A DNA stretch of 16,394 bases, from contig JAKAHL010000010.1 in NCBI GenBank assembly GCA_021815005.1, positions 1-16,394 of the forward strand. The letters run 5' to 3'. Position numbers and translations under genes: made by a program. Each line of letters opens with the position of its first letter. The first letter of the stretch is position 1. Below the pieces are notes generated by a model. It was not told the DNA's origin, did no database searches, and worked only from the letters and a program-made list of their open reading frames with translations. Positions 6,025 through 16,394 of this stretch are shown here, in pieces. Origin of the DNA: Chloroflexota bacterium. Lineage in GTDB: Bacteria > Chloroflexota > Limnocylindria > Limnocylindrales > CSP1-4.

Positions 6025-7239
6025 TCAGCCCTCCTCGCCCGCCCGGCGGGTGGCGATCTGGCGCCCGTCCTCGAGCCAGCGGCGGACCGAGAGCAGGGCG
6101 GCGATCCCCTCGCCCGCAGCGCTGCCCACCTGCTTGGTGGACCCGGCGCGGACGTCGCCGGCGGCGAACAGGCCGTCGAGGGAGGTGCGGTACCGATCGT
6201 CGGTGACGATGAACCCCTGCTGGTCGAGGTCCGCGGCGCCGCGCAGGAACGCCGTGTTGGGGTCGAGGCCCACGAACACGAACGCCGCGGCGGCGTCGAG
6301 CCGGAGCTCCGCGCCCGAGTCGCGCTCCGTGGCGAGCACCGCGGCCAGGCGCCCGTCGCGCGGCTCGAACGAGCGCAGGTCGATGCCTGAACGAACGGTG
6401 ATGCGCGGGTGGTTGCGGACCTTGTCGGCCACGAGCTCGCTCGCGCGCAGCCCACTCCGCGCCAGGATCGTCACGTGGACGGCAAGGGTCGCCAGGAACA
6501 GCGCCTCCTCGAGCGCGGAGTTGCCGCCGCCGATCACCACCAGCTCGCCCGCGCCCCGGTAGAACGGGCCGTCGCAGGTGGCGCAGTAGTGGACGCCGAG
6601 GCCGGTCAGCCCGTCCTCGCCGGGGATCCCCAGGCGCCGGTAGCGCGACCCGGTGGCGACAATCGCGGCCGAGCCGCCGTAGGCGTCGCCCGCCGCCGTG
6701 CTCACCATGACGCAGTCCGGCGCTCGGGTGACGCTGGTGACGTCCGCCGCGGACACGAGCTCCACCCCGTAGCGGCGGGCGTGGGCGACCAGGCGGTCGG
6801 CCAGCTCCTGGCCCCGGATCCCCTCCGGGAAGCCCGGGTAGTTATCGATCTGCTCGGTGGCGCCCGCCTGGCCGCCGAGCGCCCCCCGCTCGAGGACCAG
6901 CGCGTCGAGACCCTCGCGGGCGGCGTAGATGGCGGCCGAGAGACCGGCGGGCCCGCCGCCCAGGACCAGCAGGTCGTAGGCGGTGCGCCGGGCGCGCACG
7001 GTCAGGCCCAGCTTGGCGGCCAGCTCCGCGTTCGACGGCTCGAGCAGGTGCGAGCCGTCGGGGAAGACGATCGTCGGGATCGTCCGGCCGCCGTGCTGGA
7101 GCTCCTCCACGAAGCGGCGCCCGCTCTCGTCCCCGTCGATGTCCACCCAGCGGTACGGGATCCGCTGCTCGGTGAGGAACGCCTTGCTCCGGCGGCAGTC
7201 GGGGCACCACGGCGCGCCGTAGACGCTGATCTGGTCCAT
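6025..7239 (-). CDS. Glutaredoxin-thioredoxin reductase fusion flavoprotein
   Basis: This 404-residue cytosolic disulfide reductase fuses two domains. Residues 1-80 are a glutaredoxin/mycoredoxin-like fold with the active site W-C12-P-D-C15 and the T-I-P-T-I-V cis-proline loop. Residues about 86-400 are a thioredoxin reductase-type FAD/NAD(P) module. It has G-G-G-P-A-G (94-99) for FAD, redox-active C219-A-T-C222-D-G, the nucleotide-binding G-G-G-N-S-A-L-E-E-A (237-246) and the C-terminal G-L-D-P-N-T and G-D-V-R boxes. The HRRxxxR motif that binds the NADPH 2'-phosphate is not intact (A-R-S-G-L-R, 260-265), so NADH may be the donor; this is inference. The fusion implies that electrons pass from FAD through C219/C222 to the attached glutaredoxin domain. 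The ATG at 7239 has an AAGGAAG ribosome binding site. An upstream hairpin (7288-7311) separates it from the membrane protein gene. Confidence 0.92.
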   Translation of the reverse strand: MDQISVYGAPWCPDCRRSKAFLTEQRIPYRWVDIDGDESGRRFVEELQHGGRTIPTIVFPDGSHLLEPSNAELAAKLGLTVRARRTAYDLLVLGGGPAGLSAAIYAAREGLDALVLERGALGGQAGATEQIDNYPGFPEGIRGQELADRLVAHARRYGVELVSAADVTSVTRAPDCVMVSTAAGDAYGGSAAIVATGSRYRRLGIPGEDGLTGLGVHYCATCDGPFYRGAGELVVIGGGNSALEEALFLATLAVHVTILARSGLRASELVADKVRNHPRITVRSGIDLRSFEPRDGRLAAVLATERDSGAELRLDAAAAFVFVGLDPNTAFLRGAADLDQQGFIVTDDRYRTSLDGLFAAGDVRAGSTKQVGSAAGEGIAALLSVRRWLEDGRQIATRRAGEEG

Positions 7240-8054: not shown

Positions 8055-8465
8055 ACCGCCATCGCAAGCGCCCAGACCCCGACCCTCACCCCAGCCACCA
8101 AGATCCTGATCGTCCTCCAGGCCGGCACCGAGACCCACGAGGGCCAGGCCCGGGCCCTGCACAGCGTCCTGTACGCCACCGAGCTGGCCGATGCCGGCGC
8201 CACGGTGCGCCTGGTGTTCGACGGGGCCGGCACCGGCTGGCTCGCCCGCTGGACGGCCCCCGCCGACGCGCCGTCACGGGTGGCCACGCTGTTCGCGGCG
8301 CTCCGCGACCGCGGCATCGCGTTCGAGGTGTGCGACTTCTGCTCCGGGGCCTTCGGCGTGCGCGACCAGCTGGTCGACGCCGGCGTGCCGCTGACCGGCA
8401 AGTACCTTGACCACCCGAGCATCGCCTCGCACGTGCGCGACGGCTTCGCGGTGTGGATTCTGTGA
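8052..8465 (+). CDS. DsrE-like sulfur-relay/redox protein
   Basis: This 137-residue cytosolic protein has a DsrE/DsrF-type alpha/beta fold. It shows K-I-L-I-V-L-Q-A-G-T near the N-terminus, a central A-x-x-V-R-L-V-F-D-G-A-G strand and a C-terminal C94-D-F-C97-S-G-A-F-G-V motif, followed by the typical K-Y-L-D-H-P-S ending. In this superfamily a conserved cysteine carries persulfide or takes part in thiol exchange; here the two cysteines form a CxxC pair. The ATG at 8052 is preferred because it sits 41.5 bp after the operator centre with a -10 in register. The upstream frame overlaps the operator. The downstream glucosidase starts 7 bp after the stop, so they are probably co-transcribed, although the functional link is not obvious. 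The physiological substrate is unknown. Confidence 0.88.
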   Translation: MTAIASAQTPTLTPATKILIVLQAGTETHEGQARALHSVLYATELADAGATVRLVFDGAGTGWLARWTAPADAPSRVATLFAALRDRGIAFEVCDFCSGAFGVRDQLVDAGVPLTGKYLDHPSIASHVRDGFAVWIL

Positions 8466-8472
8466 CGGCGCC

Positions 8473-11235
8473 GTGAGCCGCGAGTCCGGTATCCGGGCCG
8501 CAACCGGCGGACGTGCCGGCCCCGGCGCCGGGCCCGCGCGACAGCGCGCCGAAGGCGCCGAGGCCGCCCGGCTCGCTGAGGCCCGGGCAGGCGTGCCGTG
8601 GAGGCGCTGGGGCCCGTACCTCGCCGAGCGGGCCTGGGGCACCGTGCGCGAGGACTACTCCGCGGACGGCGACGCCTGGGGCTCGTTCACCCACGACGAC
8701 GCCCGCCGACGCGCGTACCGCTGGAACGAGGACGGGCTGCTCGGGGTCTCCGACGACCAGCAGCGCCTGTGCCTCTCGCTGGCCCTCTGGAACGGCCGCG
8801 ACCCCATCCTCAAGGAGCGGCTATTCGGCCTGTCCAACCCGGAGGGCAACCACGGCGAGGACGTCAAGGAGCTGTACTTCCACCTCGACGCGGTGCCGTC
8901 CTCAGCGTACCTGCGCGCGGCGTACCTCTACCCGCAGGCCGCGTTCCCGTACGCGGACCTGGTTGCGGAGAGTGCCCGGCGCACGGGCGCCGACCCCGAG
9001 TACGAACTCCTCGACACCGGGGTCCTCGACGGCGACCGCTTCTTCGACGTGGAGGTGGAGTACGCCAAGGCGGGTCCCGACGAGATCCTCTTGCGGGTCC
9101 GGGCCCGCAACGCCGGTCCCGACGCGGCACCGCTCCACCTCATCCCCACCGCGTGGTTCCGCAACACGTGGTCGTGGGACGCCATCGCCCGGGAGGAGCG
9201 GCCGTCGCTGCGCCTCGCCGGCGGGCAGGTGGAGGCGCGCCACCCGACCCTGGGCTCGTACCGGATCGCCGCCCGCGCCGGCGGCGCCGAGGCCGGCTGG
9301 CTGTTCACCGAGAACGAGACGGCCCCGGACCGCGACGGCGCGACGCTCGACGGCGCGACGTCCCACGCTCCGGCGCGGTTCGCCAAAGACGCCTTTCACC
9401 GGTATCTGGTGGACGGCGAGCCGAACGCGGTCAACCCCGCCGGCACCGGCACCAAGGCCGGCTTCGCGGCCCGCTGGGTGGTCCCGCCGGGCGCCACGGC
9501 GGAGGTGGTCCTGGCCCTCAGCCTGGGAGGCGCCGCGCAGGCCGAGCGGCTGCTGGCCACGGCCGCCACGACCTTCGCGCTCCGGCGGGCCGAGGCGGAC
9601 GCCTTCTACGCGGACCTCGCCCCGGCCGGCGCCTCGGCCGACGAGCGCCTCGTCCAGCGGCAGGCCCTGGCAGGGATGATCTGGAACCTCCAGTACTACG
9701 AGCTGGACATGGCCCGCTGGCGCGCTGGCGATCGCATCCCGCCCCCGCCCGGCCACGCCACGACGCGGAACGCCGAGTGGGGCCACCTCCGAATCGGACG
9801 GGTGGTGAGCACCCCCGACGGCTGGGAGTTCCCGGGGTTCTTCGCCTGGGATCTCGCGCTCCAGGCGGTGACGCTCGGCCTGGTGGATCCCGAGCGCGCG
9901 AAGGAGCAGCTGCTGCTCCTGCTCGACGACCGGCTCCTCCACCCCGACGGCCAGATCCCGGCCTACGAGTGGGCGTTCTCCGACACCAACCCGCCGGTCC
10001 AGGCCTGGGCCGCCCTCGAGGTCTTCCGCCGCGAGCGCGCCGCCACCGGGACTGGCGACCGCGCCTTCCTCGAGCGCATGCTGCACGGCTTGGCGCTCAA
10101 CTTTGGCTGGTGGGTCAACCGCCGCGACCGCAGCGGGCGGAACCTGTTCGAGGGCGGGTTCCTGGGCCTCGACAACATCGCCATCGTGGACCGCAGCGCC
10201 GTGGCCGCCGAGCGTTCGGAGATCGACCAGGCCGACGCCACGGGCTGGATGGCGTTCCTCGCCCTCGGCCTCACCGAGATGGCGCTCGAGCTGGCGACCG
10301 ACGAGCCGGTCTACGCCGAGCTCGCCAAGCACTTCCTCGGCCGGTTCGTGGCCATCGGCGAGGCGCTCGCTTCCGTCGGCGGCGACGGTCTGTGGGACCC
10401 CGACGAGCGCTTCTTCTTCGACATCCTGTGCCGCCCAGGCGCCGAACCCGTGCGCCTCAAGGCGTTCTCGCTGGTGGGCCTAGTCCCGCTGCTCGCGACG
10501 CGGGTGCTCGACCCGGAGCTGCTCGCCGCGGTGCCCGGCTTCGAGGATCACCTCGACCGGCTCGCCGCCGACCATCCGACGTTCTTCGGCGACTGCCGCT
10601 GCTTCGCGTCGCCAGCGTCCGGCGGCCGGCACCTGCTGGCCTTGGTGGACGAGCATCGGTTGCTGCCGATCCTCGACCGCCTGCTCGACGAGGACCGGCT
10701 TTGGTCCGCCCACGGGGCCCGGAGCCTGTCGCGACGCCACGCGCGGGCAGACCTCCCGGTGGACGTGGAGGTTGGCGGCCAGCTCCGCCGGGTGGCCTAC
10801 GAGCCGGGCGAGACCGCCACCCGTATCATGGGCGGCAACTCCAACTGGCGGGGGCCGGTTTGGATGCCCTACAACTACCTGCTCGTGCACGCCCTGCGCC
10901 AGTACGCCCGCTACTACGGCGACGACCTGCGGCATGCCTACCCGTCACCGGACGGCGAGGCTGCCGGGCTGGCGGCCGTGGCCGAAGACCTCGCTGCGCG
11001 GCTGCTGGCGCTGTACCTGCCCGACGCCTCGGGCAGCCGCCCCGCGCTGGGAAACGACCCGCGCTGGCGCGACCACCCGGCGTTCCGCGAGCGGCTCCTG
11101 TTCTACGAGTACTTCCACGCGGAGACCGGGCGCGGCCTCGGTGCGTCCCACCAGACCGGCTGGACGGGGCTGCTGGCGAACCTCGTGGACGAGCTTGGCG
11201 CGTGGGACGAGGACCGGCGGGGGCCTGAGCAGTGA
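8473..11235 (+). CDS. GH63-type (MGH1-like) glucosidase
   Basis: This is a 920-residue glycoside hydrolase with no signal peptide, so probably cytoplasmic. The N-terminal ~400 residues match the beta-sandwich domain of bacterial 'glucosidase' proteins, with R-E-D-Y-S near the start, N-G-R-D-P-I-L-K-E-R-L-F-G-L and E-Y-E-L-L-D-T-G. The C-terminal (alpha/alpha)6 barrel carries F-F-A-W-D-L (D460, likely general acid), N-W-R-G-P-V-W-M-P-Y-N-Y-L, and Y-E-Y-F-H-A-E-T-G followed by Q-T-G-W-T-G (E879 or E884 is the likely general base). Known GH63 enzymes cleave alpha-glucosides such as kojibiose, or glucosyl/mannosylglycerate. The substrate here is open. The GTG at 8473 is the only start between the DsrE stop and the conserved region that leaves a normal-length N-terminus; it has no Shine-Dalgarno sequence, suggesting translational coupling. 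Its stop overlaps the next start (GTGA). Confidence 0.9.
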   Translation: MSRESGIRAATGGRAGPGAGPARQRAEGAEAARLAEARAGVPWRRWGPYLAERAWGTVREDYSADGDAWGSFTHDDARRRAYRWNEDGLLGVSDDQQRLCLSLALWNGRDPILKERLFGLSNPEGNHGEDVKELYFHLDAVPSSAYLRAAYLYPQAAFPYADLVAESARRTGADPEYELLDTGVLDGDRFFDVEVEYAKAGPDEILLRVRARNAGPDAAPLHLIPTAWFRNTWSWDAIAREERPSLRLAGGQVEARHPTLGSYRIAARAGGAEAGWLFTENETAPDRDGATLDGATSHAPARFAKDAFHRYLVDGEPNAVNPAGTGTKAGFAARWVVPPGATAEVVLALSLGGAAQAERLLATAATTFALRRAEADAFYADLAPAGASADERLVQRQALAGMIWNLQYYELDMARWRAGDRIPPPPGHATTRNAEWGHLRIGRVVSTPDGWEFPGFFAWDLALQAVTLGLVDPERAKEQLLLLLDDRLLHPDGQIPAYEWAFSDTNPPVQAWAALEVFRRERAATGTGDRAFLERMLHGLALNFGWWVNRRDRSGRNLFEGGFLGLDNIAIVDRSAVAAERSEIDQADATGWMAFLALGLTEMALELATDEPVYAELAKHFLGRFVAIGEALASVGGDGLWDPDERFFFDILCRPGAEPVRLKAFSLVGLVPLLATRVLDPELLAAVPGFEDHLDRLAADHPTFFGDCRCFASPASGGRHLLALVDEHRLLPILDRLLDEDRLWSAHGARSLSRRHARADLPVDVEVGGQLRRVAYEPGETATRIMGGNSNWRGPVWMPYNYLLVHALRQYARYYGDDLRHAYPSPDGEAAGLAAVAEDLAARLLALYLPDASGSRPALGNDPRWRDHPAFRERLLFYEYFHAETGRGLGASHQTGWTGLLANLVDELGAWDEDRRGPEQ

Positions 11236-12854
11236 ACCCGCCGCTCCGTCTCGGGACCACCGGCCACCCCATCCTGTTCGCGCTCGACACGCGCAGCTGG
11301 CTCGACCGCCTGAGCCGGGAGGCGGGCCGGCGGGTGCGCTTGGGCGACGTGCCCGAGGAGGCGATGGACGCGATCGCCGCGACCGGCTGCGACGCGGCGT
11401 GGCTGATCGGCGTGTGGCGGACCGGGCCGGCGGGGCGCCGGATCGCCCAGGCGCGTCCGGACGTGGTGCAAGCCGCCCGGGCGGCGCTTCCGGACTTCAC
11501 GCTCGACGACATCGTCGGCTCGCCGTTCGCGGTCTCCGCCTACGAGGTCGCCGCGGAGCTCGGCGGCGAGGCGAGCCTGGCCGTTCTCCGCCGTCGGCTG
11601 GCGGGACGCGGGATCGGCCTGGTCCTTGACTTCGTGCCCAACCACACGGCGCTCGACCACCCGTGGGTGCGCCGCCATCCCGACTGGTACGTGCACGCCG
11701 ATCCCGCGGCCGAGGGCAACGAGCCCGCCTCGTGGCTGCGGGTCAGGGCCGACGGCCGGCTGCACCGGCTGGAGCACGGGCGCGACCCGTACTTCCCCGC
11801 CTGGCCGGACACGCTGCAGCTGGACTACCGCGTCCCCGACGTGCGCGACGCGATGACCGCGACGCTCCGGGCCATCGCCACCCGCTGCGATGGCGTGCGT
11901 GCCGACATGGCGATGCTGGTGCTCGACGACGTCTTCCGGGCAACGTGGGGCTCGCGCTCGGCGGCCGGCGACGGCGGCCCGGGCCGGAGCGCCGCTGACG
12001 CGGCCGGCGAGTTCTGGTGGCATGCGATCCGGAGTGTCCGGGACGCCTATCCCGGGTTCCTGATGATTGCCGAGGCGTATTGGGGGCTCGAGTACCGGCT
12101 CCAGCAGCTGGGGTTCGACTACACGTACGACAAGGTCCTGCTCGACCGCCTGCGCTCCGGCGATGGGCCCGGGGTTGCGGCACACCTCCGCGCTGATCCC
12201 GAATACCAGCGGCACTCGCTGCGGTTCCTGGAGAATCAGGACGAGCCCCGGGCGGCCTGCGTGTTCGACGCCGACCGGTACTGGGCGGCCGCGCTGGTGG
12301 TGGCCACAGCGCCGGGGATGCTGCTGCTCCACGACGGGCAGCTCGAGGGCGCGCGGGTGCGCGTCCCCGTCGAGGCGCGGCGACGGCCGGTCGAGGCGGC
12401 TGACGCGGACGTCGCCGCGCTCTGGCATCGGGTGCTGGGCGCGCTTGGCGGGCCGGCCTTCCGCCGCGGCGTCCCGATGCGGCTGGAACCCCGGCCGACG
12501 GGCCCGGGCGACACCACCAGCGAGTCGTTCGTGTCGTGGCTGTGGGCATCGCCCGAAGGGTCGGTCCAGCTCGCGGTGGCCAACCTGGGCGGCGCTCGGG
12601 GCCGTTGCTGGCTGCCAATCGCCGTCCCCGCGCTGGCCGGGGAGGCGATTGTCCTCGAGGACCTGCTCGGCGACGCCCGCTACGAGCGGTCGGGCGACGA
12701 GCTGCTGACGCAGGGCCTCTACCTCGACCTGCCGGCCGGTGGCCGCCACCTGTTCCGCGTCCTCGGTGCGGGGGCGCCGGAGGGTGGCGTCTCAGCGGCG
12801 GACCCAGCCCCGGAGGCCAGTCGCGGGCGAACGGTCTCCCCCGGCATCGGCTAG
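11232..12854 (+). CDS. GH13 alpha-amylase family enzyme
   Basis: This 540-residue alpha-glucan-active enzyme has no signal peptide. The GH13 motifs are present: region I D133-F-V-P-N-H138; region II G-V-R-A-D225 (nucleophile); region III A-E281-A-Y (acid/base); region IV E334-N-Q-D337-E-P-R (transition-state stabiliser D337). In region IV the usual His before the Asp is Gln, as in some members acting on unusual acceptors. The architecture is an N-terminal TIM barrel (about 15-420) and a C-terminal beta domain (about 445-515). The last ~25 residues (Gly/Ala/Pro-rich) look like a non-conserved tail. It starts with GTG in a 4 bp overlap with the GH63-type gene, so the two enzymes are translationally coupled and probably act on the same glucan or glucoside. 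Exact specificity (hydrolase or transferase) cannot be told. Confidence 0.9.
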   Translation: MNPPLRLGTTGHPILFALDTRSWLDRLSREAGRRVRLGDVPEEAMDAIAATGCDAAWLIGVWRTGPAGRRIAQARPDVVQAARAALPDFTLDDIVGSPFAVSAYEVAAELGGEASLAVLRRRLAGRGIGLVLDFVPNHTALDHPWVRRHPDWYVHADPAAEGNEPASWLRVRADGRLHRLEHGRDPYFPAWPDTLQLDYRVPDVRDAMTATLRAIATRCDGVRADMAMLVLDDVFRATWGSRSAAGDGGPGRSAADAAGEFWWHAIRSVRDAYPGFLMIAEAYWGLEYRLQQLGFDYTYDKVLLDRLRSGDGPGVAAHLRADPEYQRHSLRFLENQDEPRAACVFDADRYWAAALVVATAPGMLLLHDGQLEGARVRVPVEARRRPVEAADADVAALWHRVLGALGGPAFRRGVPMRLEPRPTGPGDTTSESFVSWLWASPEGSVQLAVANLGGARGRCWLPIAVPALAGEAIVLEDLLGDARYERSGDELLTQGLYLDLPAGGRHLFRVLGAGAPEGGVSAADPAPEASRGRTVSPGIG

Positions 12855-12857
12855 CTA
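12852..12857. other. Abutting convergent stop codons
   Basis: The plus-strand GH13 gene ends with TAG at 12852-12854 and the minus-strand selenoprotein gene ends with TAG at 12857-12855, inside the palindrome CTAGCTAG (12851-12858). There is no intergenic DNA, so any terminator for either gene must lie inside the other. Confidence 0.85.
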
Positions 12858-13646
12858 GGCCTCCTTGCGCAACTGCCGCTCGCGCAGGTCGTCGAGGTCC
12901 CAGCGAAAGCCGAGGTCCACCACGGAACCCGCGGGGTGGTCCTCCAGGGCGGCCCGGAACGTGGCGTCCAGCACGCGCCGATGGGTGGCGTCGTCACCCA
13001 CGGCGCCCAGCGTCAGCCCGAACGGGTGCCCCACGAAGCAGGTGAGCGACGGGCGGGCGTGACGGGTGATCTCCGGGGCGAGGGTGATCGAGACGGTGGC
13101 GATCCCGTGGGCGTCGATGGCCCGCTGTAGCAGTCCGACCGACTGCTGGCAGACCGGTCAGGCAGGGACGAGGAAGGCAAGGTCCACCCGTTCCGCCAGG
13201 AGCCCCTGCGCGATGGCGGGCCCGGTCTCGTTGAGGAGCACGTCGGTCTGGGTCGCGTAGCCCATGGTGCTGTAGGCGTGCGGCGCCAGCCGTCCGATCC
13301 GCCCCTCCCCGACATAGGCGCGCAGCAGCGCGAGCGGGAACACGACGTCAGGATCCGCGACGGCATTCCGGACGTTGTAGCCAACGTGGTTGAAGCGCAG
13401 CTGATCGGCAGGCGTGTCGGAGGGGAACACGCGGTAGGAGGGGTCGCCCTCGCGCACGGCCTCGAACCGGGGCTGGCTCTCCAGGCGGGCGCCGCCCGTG
13501 CCGACGAGCGCGACGGTCGCCTGCTCTAGCGGCACGGCGATCCGATGCCGCGGCGAGGGTTCCGGGAACTGCCGCCAGTCGAATCCCGGGATGAACCGCT
13601 GGAGATACTCCCGCTCGACCAGCGCGAACCCCTCGACCTCCGCCAT
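12855..13646 (-). CDS. GrdB-related (glycine/sarcosine/betaine reductase selenoprotein B family) selenoprotein, in-frame UGA
   Basis: The frame opens at ATG 13646 after a strong GGAGG Shine-Dalgarno sequence, reaches a UGA at 13160-13158 (codon 163), then stays open for 100 more codons to TAG. Read as Sec, the product has 263 residues. The N-terminal part has family features: E-G-D-P-S-Y-R-V-F-P then D-T-P (about 67-79), L-R-F-N-H, D-P-D-V-V-F-P-L-A-L-L (98-108) and A-P-H-A-Y-S-T-M-G-Y (121-130). The UGA falls in D-L-A-F-L-V-P-A-U163-P-V-C166-Q-Q-S-V-G-L, where relatives have C-P-V-C. The part after it (A-H-G-I-A-T-V-S-I, F-V-G-H-P-F-G-L) also fits the family. A SECIS-like hairpin follows. 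The UxxC motif suggests a thiol/selenol redox enzyme; the substrate is unknown. A TGC-to-TGA sequencing error or a nonsense mutation is the alternative. Standard gene callers would report only residues 1-162. Confidence 0.85.
13122..13157 (-). other. Bacterial SECIS-like hairpin after the Sec UGA
   Basis: Counting from the base after the UGA, nt 11-17 (AGCAGTC, 13147-13141) pair perfectly with nt 23-29 (GACTGCT, 13135-13129) around the loop GGTCG (nt 18-22, 13140-13136). Outer CTG/CAG (nt 6-8 with 31-33) and CCG/CGG (nt 1-3 with 34-36) pairs extend the stem past small internal loops. Known bacterial SECIS elements have a short apical loop about 16-37 nt after the UGA with a G among its first two bases. 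All these conditions are met. Confidence 0.75.
13158..13160 (-). other. UGA codon predicted to encode selenocysteine (U163)
   Basis: This in-frame UGA stands in place of the first Cys of the conserved CPVC motif of the family, giving U-P-V-C. The reading frame has no other interruption between 13646 and 12857. Confidence 0.8.
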
Positions 13647-13661
13647 GTCCACCTCCGTGCG

Positions 13662-13686
13662 GCCCGCCGCCCCTGCGGCGGCGGGC
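13662..13686 (-). promoter_or_regulatory. Leader hairpin just upstream of the selenoprotein ribosome binding site
   Basis: GCCCGCCGC (13662-13670) pairs perfectly with GCGGCGGGC (13678-13686), a 9 bp stem with a 7-base loop. On the mRNA it ends about five bases before the GGAGG of the selenoprotein gene, so it could affect translation, act as an attenuator or protect the 5' end. No riboswitch class is recognisable. Confidence 0.5.
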
Positions 13687-13704
13687 TTGCTTGTCATCGC
13701 GATC

Positions 13705-13710
13705 ATTTTG
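13705..13710 (-). promoter_or_regulatory. Candidate -10 for the selenoprotein gene
   Basis: CAAAAT (complement of 13705-13710) lies in a notably A/T-rich island for this DNA. Its last base is 54.5 bp from the centre of the operator at 13752-13767. It would give a leader of ~50 nt containing the hairpin at 13662-13686. Confidence 0.4.
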
Positions 13711-13751
13711 CTTGACGATCCGCAACCGCTGGATATCGCCCGCGACCACGC

Positions 13752-13767
13752 TGTGAGCGGGCTCACA
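13752..13767. promoter_or_regulatory. Second CRP/FNR-superfamily operator TGTGA-N6-TCACA
   Basis: TGTGA (13752-13756) and TCACA (13763-13767) lie within an 18 bp interrupted palindrome (13751-13768, CTGTGA...TCACAG). The centre at 13759.5 is exactly 41.5 bp before the ATG at 13801. Geometry and consensus are the same as for the site at 8003-8018, and it also lies between divergent genes. Confidence 0.75.
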
Positions 13768-13788
13768 GCGGCGCTGGGCGCCCTGGGG

Positions 13789-13803
13789 CACCATGCGGCA
13801 ATG
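13789..13803 (+). promoter_or_regulatory. Leaderless promoter of the SRPBCC gene
   Basis: CACCAT (13789-13794) has the key -10 bases A2 and T6, with T6 seven bases before the ATG, as at 8040-8045. The block ACCnTGCGGCnATG is shared with the DsrE promoter. There is no Shine-Dalgarno sequence. Confidence 0.55.
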
Positions 13804-14313
13804 AGCCTGGACCCTGGTCGCGGGGCGACGCTGCCCGCCGGACCTGTGCAGATGGAGATCGGCGCCCCCGCCGCGCTCGTCCGCCAGATGCTCGCCGCGA
13901 TCGGCCAGGGGGTCCAGCGGCCCGGCGAGCGGGCGGTGGTCCTGGAGCGCGACGGCGATCGGCTCGTCGCCGACTTCTGGACGCCGGTCCGGCTCCCGCT
14001 GGGGCGACGGCGCATCGTGCGGACGCGGGAGGCGGTCAGTCTCGCCTCGCCGGACCGCGTCGAGTACGAGCACCTCGACGGGCCGCTGCGCGGGCTGCGG
14101 GAGGCCATCGCGGTGCACCCCGTCGGCGCGGGGCGCTGCCGCATCGTCTACGAGGGCGCCTATCCGCCCCGCGGCTGGCTGGACCGCACCCTGTACGGCG
14201 TCGTGGCGCGCCGCTCGCTCGAGCGGGCGGTGCGGGCCCACCTGGAGGACCTGCGACCCCGCGCCGAGGCGCGGGCGGCCCGCAGCCGCGTCTTCCCGCC
14301 AGACCCCGCCTGA
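13801..14313 (+). CDS. SRPBCC-fold (START/polyketide cyclase-like) protein
   Basis: This 170-residue cytosolic protein has no signal peptide. The layout is typical of the SRPBCC helix-grip fold: an N-terminal strand and helix (about 15-37, Q-M-E-I-G-A-P-A-A-L-V-R-Q-M-L-A-A-I), a series of antiparallel strands (about 45-120, including A-V-V-L-E-R-D-G-D-R-L-V-A-D-F and V-E-Y-E-H-L-D-G-P-L-R-G) and a long C-terminal Arg/Ala-rich helix (about 135-160). Members bind hydrophobic ligands or act as cyclases, hydrolases or stress proteins; no catalytic residues can be assigned here. The ATG at 13801 is chosen because it fits the leaderless promoter and the operator spacing. It is divergent from the selenoprotein gene across a shared 154 bp control region. 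Ligand unknown. Confidence 0.8.
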   Translation: MSLDPGRGATLPAGPVQMEIGAPAALVRQMLAAIGQGVQRPGERAVVLERDGDRLVADFWTPVRLPLGRRRIVRTREAVSLASPDRVEYEHLDGPLRGLREAIAVHPVGAGRCRIVYEGAYPPRGWLDRTLYGVVARRSLERAVRAHLEDLRPRAEARAARSRVFPPDPA

Positions 14314-14405: not shown

Positions 14406-15272
14406 TCAGCGCGCCCGGGCGATCACGGCCACGTAGCCGATCTCGCCACGGCGCACGGCGGCACGCACATCGTCAGCGAGGTGGCGCGCAGCGTCCGGAC
14501 CGCCGCTCGCGAGCGAGCCCAGCCCGGCCAGCTCCGCCAGCCCGGCAAGGTCAAGACTCGAGCCGCGGGCCACGGCCAGCGCCAGCCGCACCCGCGATTC
14601 GATCCGGTCCACCAGCTCGACCACCGTCTCGCTGCGGTCCCACCGTCGCTCGATCGTGAACCCGGCCTCGGCGAGCTGGTCCTCGATCTCCCCCGGGAGC
14701 CACGCGTCGCCGATGCAGAGGGCCGCCCCGAGCAGCCGGTCGGCGATGGCGAGTGGCGCCGCTCCCGAGGTCACCACATCGCTGAGCGCGAGCGTGCCGC
14801 CGTCACGAAGGACCCGCCGAAGCTCTGCAAGGGCGTGGCCCCGAGCGGTGGTGGACAGCACGCACTCGCTCAGGACGCCGTCGAATGTGCCGTCCGCCGC
14901 CGGCAGGGCCAGCAGATCGGCGCGCGACCAGACCACCTCCCCGGCGGTGTCCCTGGCCACGGCCCGGGCGACGATAGCCGCGCTCGCGTCGACCGCCTCC
15001 ACGCGCAGGCCGAACTCGGCGGCCGCGAGGCGGGCGCTCGTGCCCAGACCGCATCCGGCGTCGAGGAGCCGCGCCCCGCACGGCAGCCGAGCCGCGGCGA
15101 GCAGCATGCGCGTCGACTCGAGGCCGCCCGGGTGCAGGGACGGGCCGACGAGCAGCTCGGCGAGCGGGCTCCCGTACACCGCCGAGCAGCATGCCGCGAC
15201 CGCAGCGGCATCGCCCGTCGTCTCGATGCGGGGCGTCGCCGCGCGGGCCGGCGCGACTGGCTCGCTGGTCAC
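14406..15272 (-). CDS. Class I SAM-dependent methyltransferase, resembling the DVU_1556 family
   Basis: This 288-residue cytosolic methyltransferase has motif I L-L-D-A-G-C-G-L-G-T-S-A (about 69-80), the acidic motif II E-A-V-D-A-S (about 93-98), A-D-L-L-A-L-P-A-A-D-G-T-F-D-G-V-L-S-E-C-V-L-S (about 118-140) and a post-motif L-R-D-G-G-T-L-A-L-S-D-V. Upstream, L-H-P-G-G-L-E-S-T (about 46-54) and, downstream, C-I-G-D-A-W then A-G-F-T-I-E-R-R-W-D-R-S fit what I recall of the family NCBI names after Desulfovibrio DVU_1556, found beside radical SAM and other redox genes. The GTG start overlaps the radical SAM stop (GTGA), so the two are coupled. The last ~50 residues are Ala/Gly/Leu-rich. Methyl acceptor unknown; a generic UbiE-like enzyme is the alternative. 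Confidence 0.85.
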   Translation of the reverse strand: MTSEPVAPARAATPRIETTGDAAAVAACCSAVYGSPLAELLVGPSLHPGGLESTRMLLAAARLPCGARLLDAGCGLGTSARLAAAEFGLRVEAVDASAAIVARAVARDTAGEVVWSRADLLALPAADGTFDGVLSECVLSTTARGHALAELRRVLRDGGTLALSDVVTSGAAPLAIADRLLGAALCIGDAWLPGEIEDQLAEAGFTIERRWDRSETVVELVDRIESRVRLALAVARGSSLDLAGLAELAGLGSLASGGPDAARHLADDVRAAVRRGEIGYVAVIARAR

Positions 15273-16393
15273 GGCACCGACTCGGGCACCGGAATCGGCC
15301 GGCTGCCCTTGCGGGCGGCCAGCCGCGCGCGCTCCTGCTCCCGGTACCCGACGGTGTTGTACGTGCAGAATGGGATCATCCGGCCGTCAGTCTGGAGAAT
15401 CCCGATGCAGCACTTCATCGCGCGCTTGACGTCGAACGTCCAGGGGTCGAGGAAGTCGCGGACCTGGACCATGAACACGCGCCGGGCCAGGTCCGTCAGG
15501 GCGGGCAGGTCCAGATCGCAGGCGGCGCACAGGAGGCGATCGCCGGTGGGCTCGCCCGGGACCGAGCCGGCGGACCACAGCCCCTCGAGCGCGTGGAGCA
15601 CGTCCCGGTCGATCCCCGGCACTGTGCGGTTGGTGATGTAGTCGAGGTACTGGTCCACCTCGAGCACGCGTGGCAGCGGGATCGCGCCGCCGTCGTCGTC
15701 GACGTAGGCGTAGGTCACCGAGCTGCAGGTCGGCGAGCAGCAGGGGATCGGCACGAAGTCGCTGGCCCGGAACGTCTCGCCGCCCGTCTCCACCGCCCGC
15801 AGGACGTCCGGGACGGTCATTCGCCGCATGGGATCGTGATCCGGGTGGCGCCCGGAATGGGTGACGGGCTGGAACATCACGCCACGCACGGCCGGGTGCC
15901 TCAGGCCGAACTCGATGAGCGGTCCGGCCTCGTGCTCGTTGACGTCCCGCTCGATCGCCGCCACGAGGATCACGTGCAGGTCGGCCTCGGCCAGGCGGTC
16001 GAGCGCCCGGAGCTTCGTCTCGAGCAGCGGCTCGCCGCGGATCGTGCGGTACGTGTCGTCCGTGAGGCCGTCGAACTGGAGGTAGACCAGCGGGCGCAGG
16101 GCCGCGAACGCGGCGAACCACGCAGGGTCATCCGCGATCCGCAGGCCGTTGGTGTTGACCATCACGTGGCGGATGTCGCGGGCCTGCGCCGCCGCGATCA
16201 TCTGGAGCAGGTCCGGGTGGATCGTCGGCTCGCCGCCGCTGAACTGGACGAGCTCGGGGTGGCCCTCGAGCTCCACGAACCGGTCGAGCATCGCCTCGAC
16301 CTCGGGGACCGTGAGGTTGAAGCCGGCGCCCGCGTTCGCGAAGCAGACGGGGCAGTCGAGGCTGCACGCGGTGTTGACCTCGATCAGCGCCAG
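15269..16393 (-). CDS. Radical SAM protein related to Tes/MJ0619 (5' end outside the window)
   Basis: The frame is open to the right edge, so the N-terminus is missing; 374 residues are visible. The radical SAM cluster motif C10-S-L-D-C14-P-V-C17-F-A-N-A is at the start of the visible part, followed by F-S-G-G-E-P-T-I-H-P. A cysteine-rich C-terminal half follows: I-P-C-C-S-P-T-C, L-L-C-A-A-C-D, F-L-D-P-W-T-F-D, K-C-C-I-G-I and a final P-F-C-T-Y-N-T. This pattern resembles the tetraether lipid synthase Tes and MJ0619 group, whose members carry extra Fe-S clusters bound by such cysteines. The reaction here is unknown: C-C bond formation or methylation are family possibilities. Its stop overlaps the start of the methyltransferase, and the pair probably acts in sequence. 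The ATG at 16291 is internal, because it falls after the radical SAM motif. Confidence 0.9.
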   Translation of the reverse strand: MALIEVNTACSLDCPVCFANAGAGFNLTVPEVEAMLDRFVELEGHPELVQFSGGEPTIHPDLLQMIAAAQARDIRHVMVNTNGLRIADDPAWFAAFAALRPLVYLQFDGLTDDTYRTIRGEPLLETKLRALDRLAEADLHVILVAAIERDVNEHEAGPLIEFGLRHPAVRGVMFQPVTHSGRHPDHDPMRRMTVPDVLRAVETGGETFRASDFVPIPCCSPTCSSVTYAYVDDDGGAIPLPRVLEVDQYLDYITNRTVPGIDRDVLHALEGLWSAGSVPGEPTGDRLLCAACDLDLPALTDLARRVFMVQVRDFLDPWTFDVKRAMKCCIGILQTDGRMIPFCTYNTVGYREQERARLAARKGSRPIPVPESVP

Positions 16394-16394
16394 G

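Follow-up and report, generated by a model that had tools for sequence, protein, structure and literature searches.

Reading frame at the locus

This locus raises the question of whether a reading frame that stops at a UGA codon encodes a protein of 162 residues, or whether the UGA is decoded as selenocysteine (Sec) within a longer protein and, if so, to which family that protein belongs. The window, that is, the whole stretch of 16,394 nucleotides that was analyzed, carries the frame on its reverse strand. From an ATG at 13646, the frame runs through 162 codons to a TGA at 13160-13158 and then through 100 further codons to a TAG at 12857-12855 (Table 1). The original prediction had described this frame with the same coordinates, strand, and codon counts, the motif U163-P-V-C166, and an extension that starts with PVCQQSVGL, and all of these were recovered when the frame was re-read.

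The window DNA has a GC content of 0.747, and its 16.4 kb contain 88 ORFs that are 60 aa or longer. Because open frames come cheap in such GC-rich DNA, the case for the gene rests on comparison. The continuity of the frame past the UGA is more than chance, due to the alignment of the 100-residue extension with homologues bearing UGA or Cys at that column.

Table 1. Features annotated around the in-frame UGA of the window.
Feature	Position	Strand	Remarks
Predicted PrdB-like selenoprotein gene	12855..13646	(-)	263 residues with Sec163, TAG stop included
In-frame UGA, putatively read as Sec163	13158..13160	(-)	First position of the U163-P-V-C166 motif
bSECIS-like hairpin 3' of the UGA	13119..13155	(-)	Upper stem 13129-13147, loop GGUCG
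Polyketide_cyc2-domain gene	13645..14313	(+)	Divergent, start uncertain; 27.5 bits, cut-off 27.4
DVU_1556-like SAM methyltransferase gene	14406..15272	(-)	Upstream, same strand; NCBIfam 132.7 bits, cut-off 155
TrsS-like radical SAM gene	15269..16394	(-)	Truncated at the window end; NCBIfam 215 bits, cut-off 490

Sec/Cys column among the homologues

The protein search resulted in 47 matches, the first of which was the window's own truncated form; the database homologue P0002 is 79% identical to the window protein and points to Chloroflexota as the window's phylum. Alignment A1 comprised 20 database homologues other than the window's own form. Nineteen of them end just before the UGA, as expected from the claim that automated annotation would truncate the gene, and public protein sets thus cut this selenoprotein group at its active-site residue. 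The remaining one, P0026, is a full-length Cys homologue with CPVCQQS, reading CPVCQQSVALLQRAL against UPVCQQSVGLLQRAI in the window. Taken at face value, the truncated entries would favor a genuine stop or recent damage, with a 162-residue protein and a downstream frame that is a remnant, and the low cost of open frames in this DNA points the same way.

For the codon count, 96 profile matches were aligned, and after removal of two without a residue at the column, duplicates, and pieces shorter than 60 bases, 71 homologous genes from 69 loci were retained. At the position of the window's UGA, 52 of these genes, from several phyla, have TGA, 14 have TGC, four have TGT, and one has GAC (Asp), although the sequences are related and the counts are not independent trials. 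The UxxC motif is present in 48 of the 52 UGA genes, a set that includes the distant GrdB-like branch L075, L076, and L089, and 14 of the 18 Cys genes have CxxC. All 52 UGA genes continue in frame beyond the UGA, and the sequence of the 100-residue extension is conserved. With UGA, TGC, or TGT in 70 of the 71 genes, the expectation of Sec or Cys at residue 163 was borne out, and both a plain stop and a base error are therefore very unlikely. The latter would have changed TGC or TGT into TGA in the window's assembly, the only one in which the locus was observed; however, independent assemblies of the closest full-length relatives (L025, L026, and L027) likewise carry TGA there.

In the tree, the window groups with these three Actinomycetota sequences and then with L123, all of them with UGA. 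The tree needs five Sec/Cys changes, four of which are forced by well-supported branches. Genus g147 holds both forms, UGA in L056 and L060 versus Cys in L062, and offers a natural Sec/Cys comparison.

A scan of named genomes resulted in 17 loci. Ten are PrdB-like with UGA (three from Actinomycetota and seven from Chloroflexota such as SAR202); five come from Acidobacteria and lack the UGA, and two, from Clostridia, are GrdB-like and have it. Within the window's phylum, the PrdB profile matched in 100 of 400 sampled genomes, a figure that includes GrdB-like matches not separately counted, and none of the 400 passed its cut-off. Of 177 genomes from the window's class, seven have a match. The window's genome is the only one of its genus among them, and the gene was not found in 11 further genomes of that genus. 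Given this patchy distribution, the gene may have been acquired horizontally.

Several homologues depart from the common arrangement. The Acidobacteria homologues L030, L037, L038, and L039 have Cys at the Sec column and Ser at the second Cys (CxLSHQS), and L033 has Asp at the first motif position. Locus L124 (genome G421) carries three PrdB-like UGA genes within 5 kb (8382-13350). At L118 (2919-2930 and nearby; G342), a PrdB-like gene has two UGAs in the motif (UPIU) and is possibly a double-Sec form.

Hairpin after the UGA

The 45-base piece starting at the UGA folds at -23.7 kcal/mol, with a z of -3.6 against shuffles, and a 54-base piece gives a z of -1.9. The five-base loop GGUCG begins at the 18th base past the UGA, which suits the placing of the loop in a bSECIS element, and the hairpin is therefore called bSECIS-like here. 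Considered alone, the window hairpin is marginal, as 6.4% of 2000 synonymous variants fold equally well.

The hairpin was then compared among the homologues, with the proviso that the counts come from related sequences and are not independent trials. At least five of the six upper-stem pairs are present in 42 of 51 UGA genes, whereas only 3 of 18 Cys genes have them, and these three all lie outside the 14 CxxC genes (0/14). The UGA set omits L064, which has a 3-base insertion (with it, 42/52), and the GAC gene was left out. Among the 52 UGA genes, 33 have A-U and 13 have G-C at pair 17-29, and 26 have G-C and 21 have C-G at pair 18-28. In total, 271 of 306 cells are paired in the UGA genes, against a mean of 188 (sd 6) when the 3' letters are shuffled among sequences. 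Additionally, under synonymous resampling the mean folding energy of the hairpin rose from -11.15 to -7.11 kcal/mol for UGA genes, a weakening not seen in Cys genes (-6.02 before, -6.38 after).

The hairpin is thus kept in the UGA homologues and lost in the Cys homologues, and the window carries it. With this result added to the codon count, we regard a genuine stop or recent damage as highly improbable and a base error in the assembly as slightly more improbable still.

Selenocysteine machinery

The window's genome (G000) comprises 2.05 Mb in 317 contigs and is 72% complete. The machinery that Sec decoding calls for was found in it: selA, selB, selD, and tRNA-Sec all scored over their cut-offs, selB and selA lie side by side on contig C4, tRNA-Sec lies near selD on contig C84, and ARAGORN reported a tRNA-SeC with anticodon tca. 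Across genomes, selA gave no separation between the two forms: of 59 genomes with the UGA form, 56 have selA, as do 13 of the 16 with Cys forms only. The composition of the window contig fits its bin without proving it, and mis-binning is possible.

We estimate a probability of about 97% that the window gene decodes its UGA as Sec. Both Sec insertion and a redox function are predicted for the protein.

Family assignment and partner subunits

The original prediction had assigned the gene to the GrdB family. This assignment stood at the level of the Pfam family GRDB (PF07355), which the window protein matches with 43.7 bits (cut-off 22) over profile positions 222-344 of 347. It did not stand at the level of the curated families, as the nearest of these is PrdB, and neither the PrdB nor the GrdB cut-off is reached. 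The best NCBIfam model is PrdB TIGR04483, with 108.3 bits over profile positions 22-232 of 238 against a cut-off of 300. The four models for betaine, sarcosine, and glycine reductases gave 40 to 50 bits, all under their cut-offs of 65 to 800; among them, GrdB TIGR01917 gave 40.4 bits against 602.2. By profile score, the window protein is nearer to PrdB (108 bits) than to GrdB (40 bits).

Both PrdB, the Sec subunit of D-proline reductase, and GrdB, selenoprotein B of glycine reductase, are listed as selenoproteins in portions of two reviews (PMC13188914 and PMC9312934), and both have Sec in a UxxC motif according to a portion of PMC13188914. The window protein resembles PrdB in this motif, in its similar size, and in matching the profile almost throughout, but falls far below the curated cut-off. 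With GrdB it shares the PF07355 match and the motif; however, the alignment of its 263 residues spans only 219-418 of the 431 positions of TIGR01917.

A further comparison concerned the partner subunits. We searched 18 genomes for PrdA. The match was strong in the Lutispora control G522 (4e-297) and weak in G523 and G312, and there was none in the other 15, including the window's. Among the 13 other genomes of the window's phylum, only G312 matched (3.9e-5). The GrdA search gave the same split, with matches in G522, G523, and G312 only; the one in G312 was clear and again the sole match among those 13 genomes, and the window's genome, 72% complete, was without a match. A passage of PMC9751293 gives GrdE as a homologue of PrdA, and the weak PrdA-profile matches may be GrdE. 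Additionally, prdA was not found in 94 fetched loci, many of them short.

For the window's genome alone, these absences weigh little due to its incomplete and fragmented assembly. Its missing part could hold the partner genes, and the protein would then be the Sec subunit of a working D-proline or glycine-type reductase. PrdB is indeed its best curated profile, and some sources label its relatives 'D-proline reductase (dithiol) PrdB'. Against this reading stand the score of 108 where 300 is required, the lack of any passing genome among the 400 sampled, and the failure to find PrdA in 12 of the 13 other phylum genomes, so we consider it unlikely. As the partner subunits were not found, the PrdB-like protein probably does not serve as a proline or glycine reductase subunit, and the complete genome would presumably also lack a PrdA or GrdA partner. 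We conclude that the gene most likely encodes a selenoprotein of a PrdB-like kind, a subunit of neither PrdAB nor Grd. The names D-proline reductase and glycine reductase are not supported by the gene content seen in the PrdA and GrdA searches.

Gene neighborhood

In the window, the Polyketide_cyc2-domain gene sits between the PrdB-like and methyltransferase genes, and there is a 4-base overlap between the methyltransferase gene and the TrsS-like radical SAM gene. The visible part of the TrsS-like protein has Cys and no internal UGA; TrsS appears among the selenoproteins listed in a portion of PMC13188914. The methyltransferase and TrsS-like radical SAM proteins are possible functional partners of the PrdB-like protein. 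As a guide to function, however, the neighborhood gave weak leads only, and neighbor genes are treated here as leads to a pathway, not as proof.

A related gene set was found in L105, from another family of the phylum. Its methyltransferase is 36% identical to the window's, and the locus also carries genes for PrdB-like (UGA) and glutaredoxin-like proteins, although genes for a Crp-type regulator and a flavodoxin-like protein lie in between. At the start of L105, just before its methyltransferase, a 33-residue stretch weakly matches the end of the radical SAM protein. The window methyltransferase had also clustered with ORFs of L123, but L123 was rejected because only L105 held in direct comparison and tblastn; no NCBIfam match was found for the L123 pieces in that cluster. 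A relative of the Polyketide_cyc2 gene lies near the PrdB-like gene of L123.

In the other clades, the commonest neighbor is a peroxiredoxin-like gene. BLAST clusters placed it in 12 of 50 loci, in seven of which it is adjacent or overlapping on the same strand, and did not place it in the window's clade (L025, L026, L027, and L123). The domain scan of 136 neighbor proteins (137 were picked, and one long protein was left out) gave AhpC-TSA as the most frequent domain, with seven members.

Two further arrangements were observed. At 6025-7210 (-) of the window, glutaredoxin/mycoredoxin-like and thioredoxin-reductase-like domains occur in one frame, and L105 contains a relative of the glutaredoxin part. 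In L027 (8001-12774), genes for hydantoinase/oxoprolinase A and B come after the actinobacterial PrdB-like UGA gene, with overlapping ends.

Structure and proposed mechanism

The AlphaFold model of the window protein, with Cys modeled for Sec, reached a pLDDT of 95 and a pTM of 0.93. It shows a strand at 156-160, followed by Sec163-Cys166 at the start of a helix at 164-178. A search for a significant relative among solved structures found none. Selenolate/thiol pairs placed where a helix begins are well known from redox proteins, and the likely chemistry is therefore selenenylsulfide exchange or reductive cleavage.

In the mechanism we propose, the gene product would be a selenoprotein of 263 residues that belongs to the PrdB-like part of PF07355. 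The hairpin immediately 3' of codon 163 would direct SelB with selenocysteyl-tRNA to decode the UGA there as Sec. The Sec163-x-x-Cys166 pair at the helix start would form and break a selenenylsulfide; the selenolate would attack a substrate, and cellular thiols would regenerate the Sec/Cys pair. We somewhat favor a stand-alone reductase or redox partner as the role of the protein.

By a narrower margin of confidence, we suggest that the short PrdB-like selenoproteins of the window's phylum, Actinomycetota, and SAR202 form a separate enzyme family with its own function, misnamed after the proline and glycine reductases and working without PrdA or GrdA. One clade may serve peroxide/thiol redox, with the adjoining peroxiredoxin, and another may act with the TrsS-like radical SAM protein and the SAM methyltransferase, a gene set present in the window and partly in L105.

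Environmental relatives

The window gene is new, and its family is already known as Sec-containing. According to portions of PMC1088965 and PMC2398784, Sec-containing 'PrdB' proteins have been known from ocean metagenomes since 2005. In the portion concerning the Sargasso Sea (PMC1088965), 42 Sec sequences with UxxC are given, and Sec-form 'PrdB' is the third most abundant selenoprotein family of the set; its true function therefore bears on selenium use by environmental bacteria. In the GOS table (PMC2398784, in part), where 'PrdB' stands under pfam07355 with UxxC, 235 Sec and 110 Cys sequences are given. These 'Proline reductase PrdB' sequences are like the window protein in having UxxC and in the presence of Sec and Cys forms within the family, as described in those portions, but they are marine. 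The SAR202 relatives L029 and L031, which would correspond to the GOS 'PrdB' set, belong to another clade and read UPLCHQSGGL or UPICHQSGGL where the window has UPVCQQSVGL.
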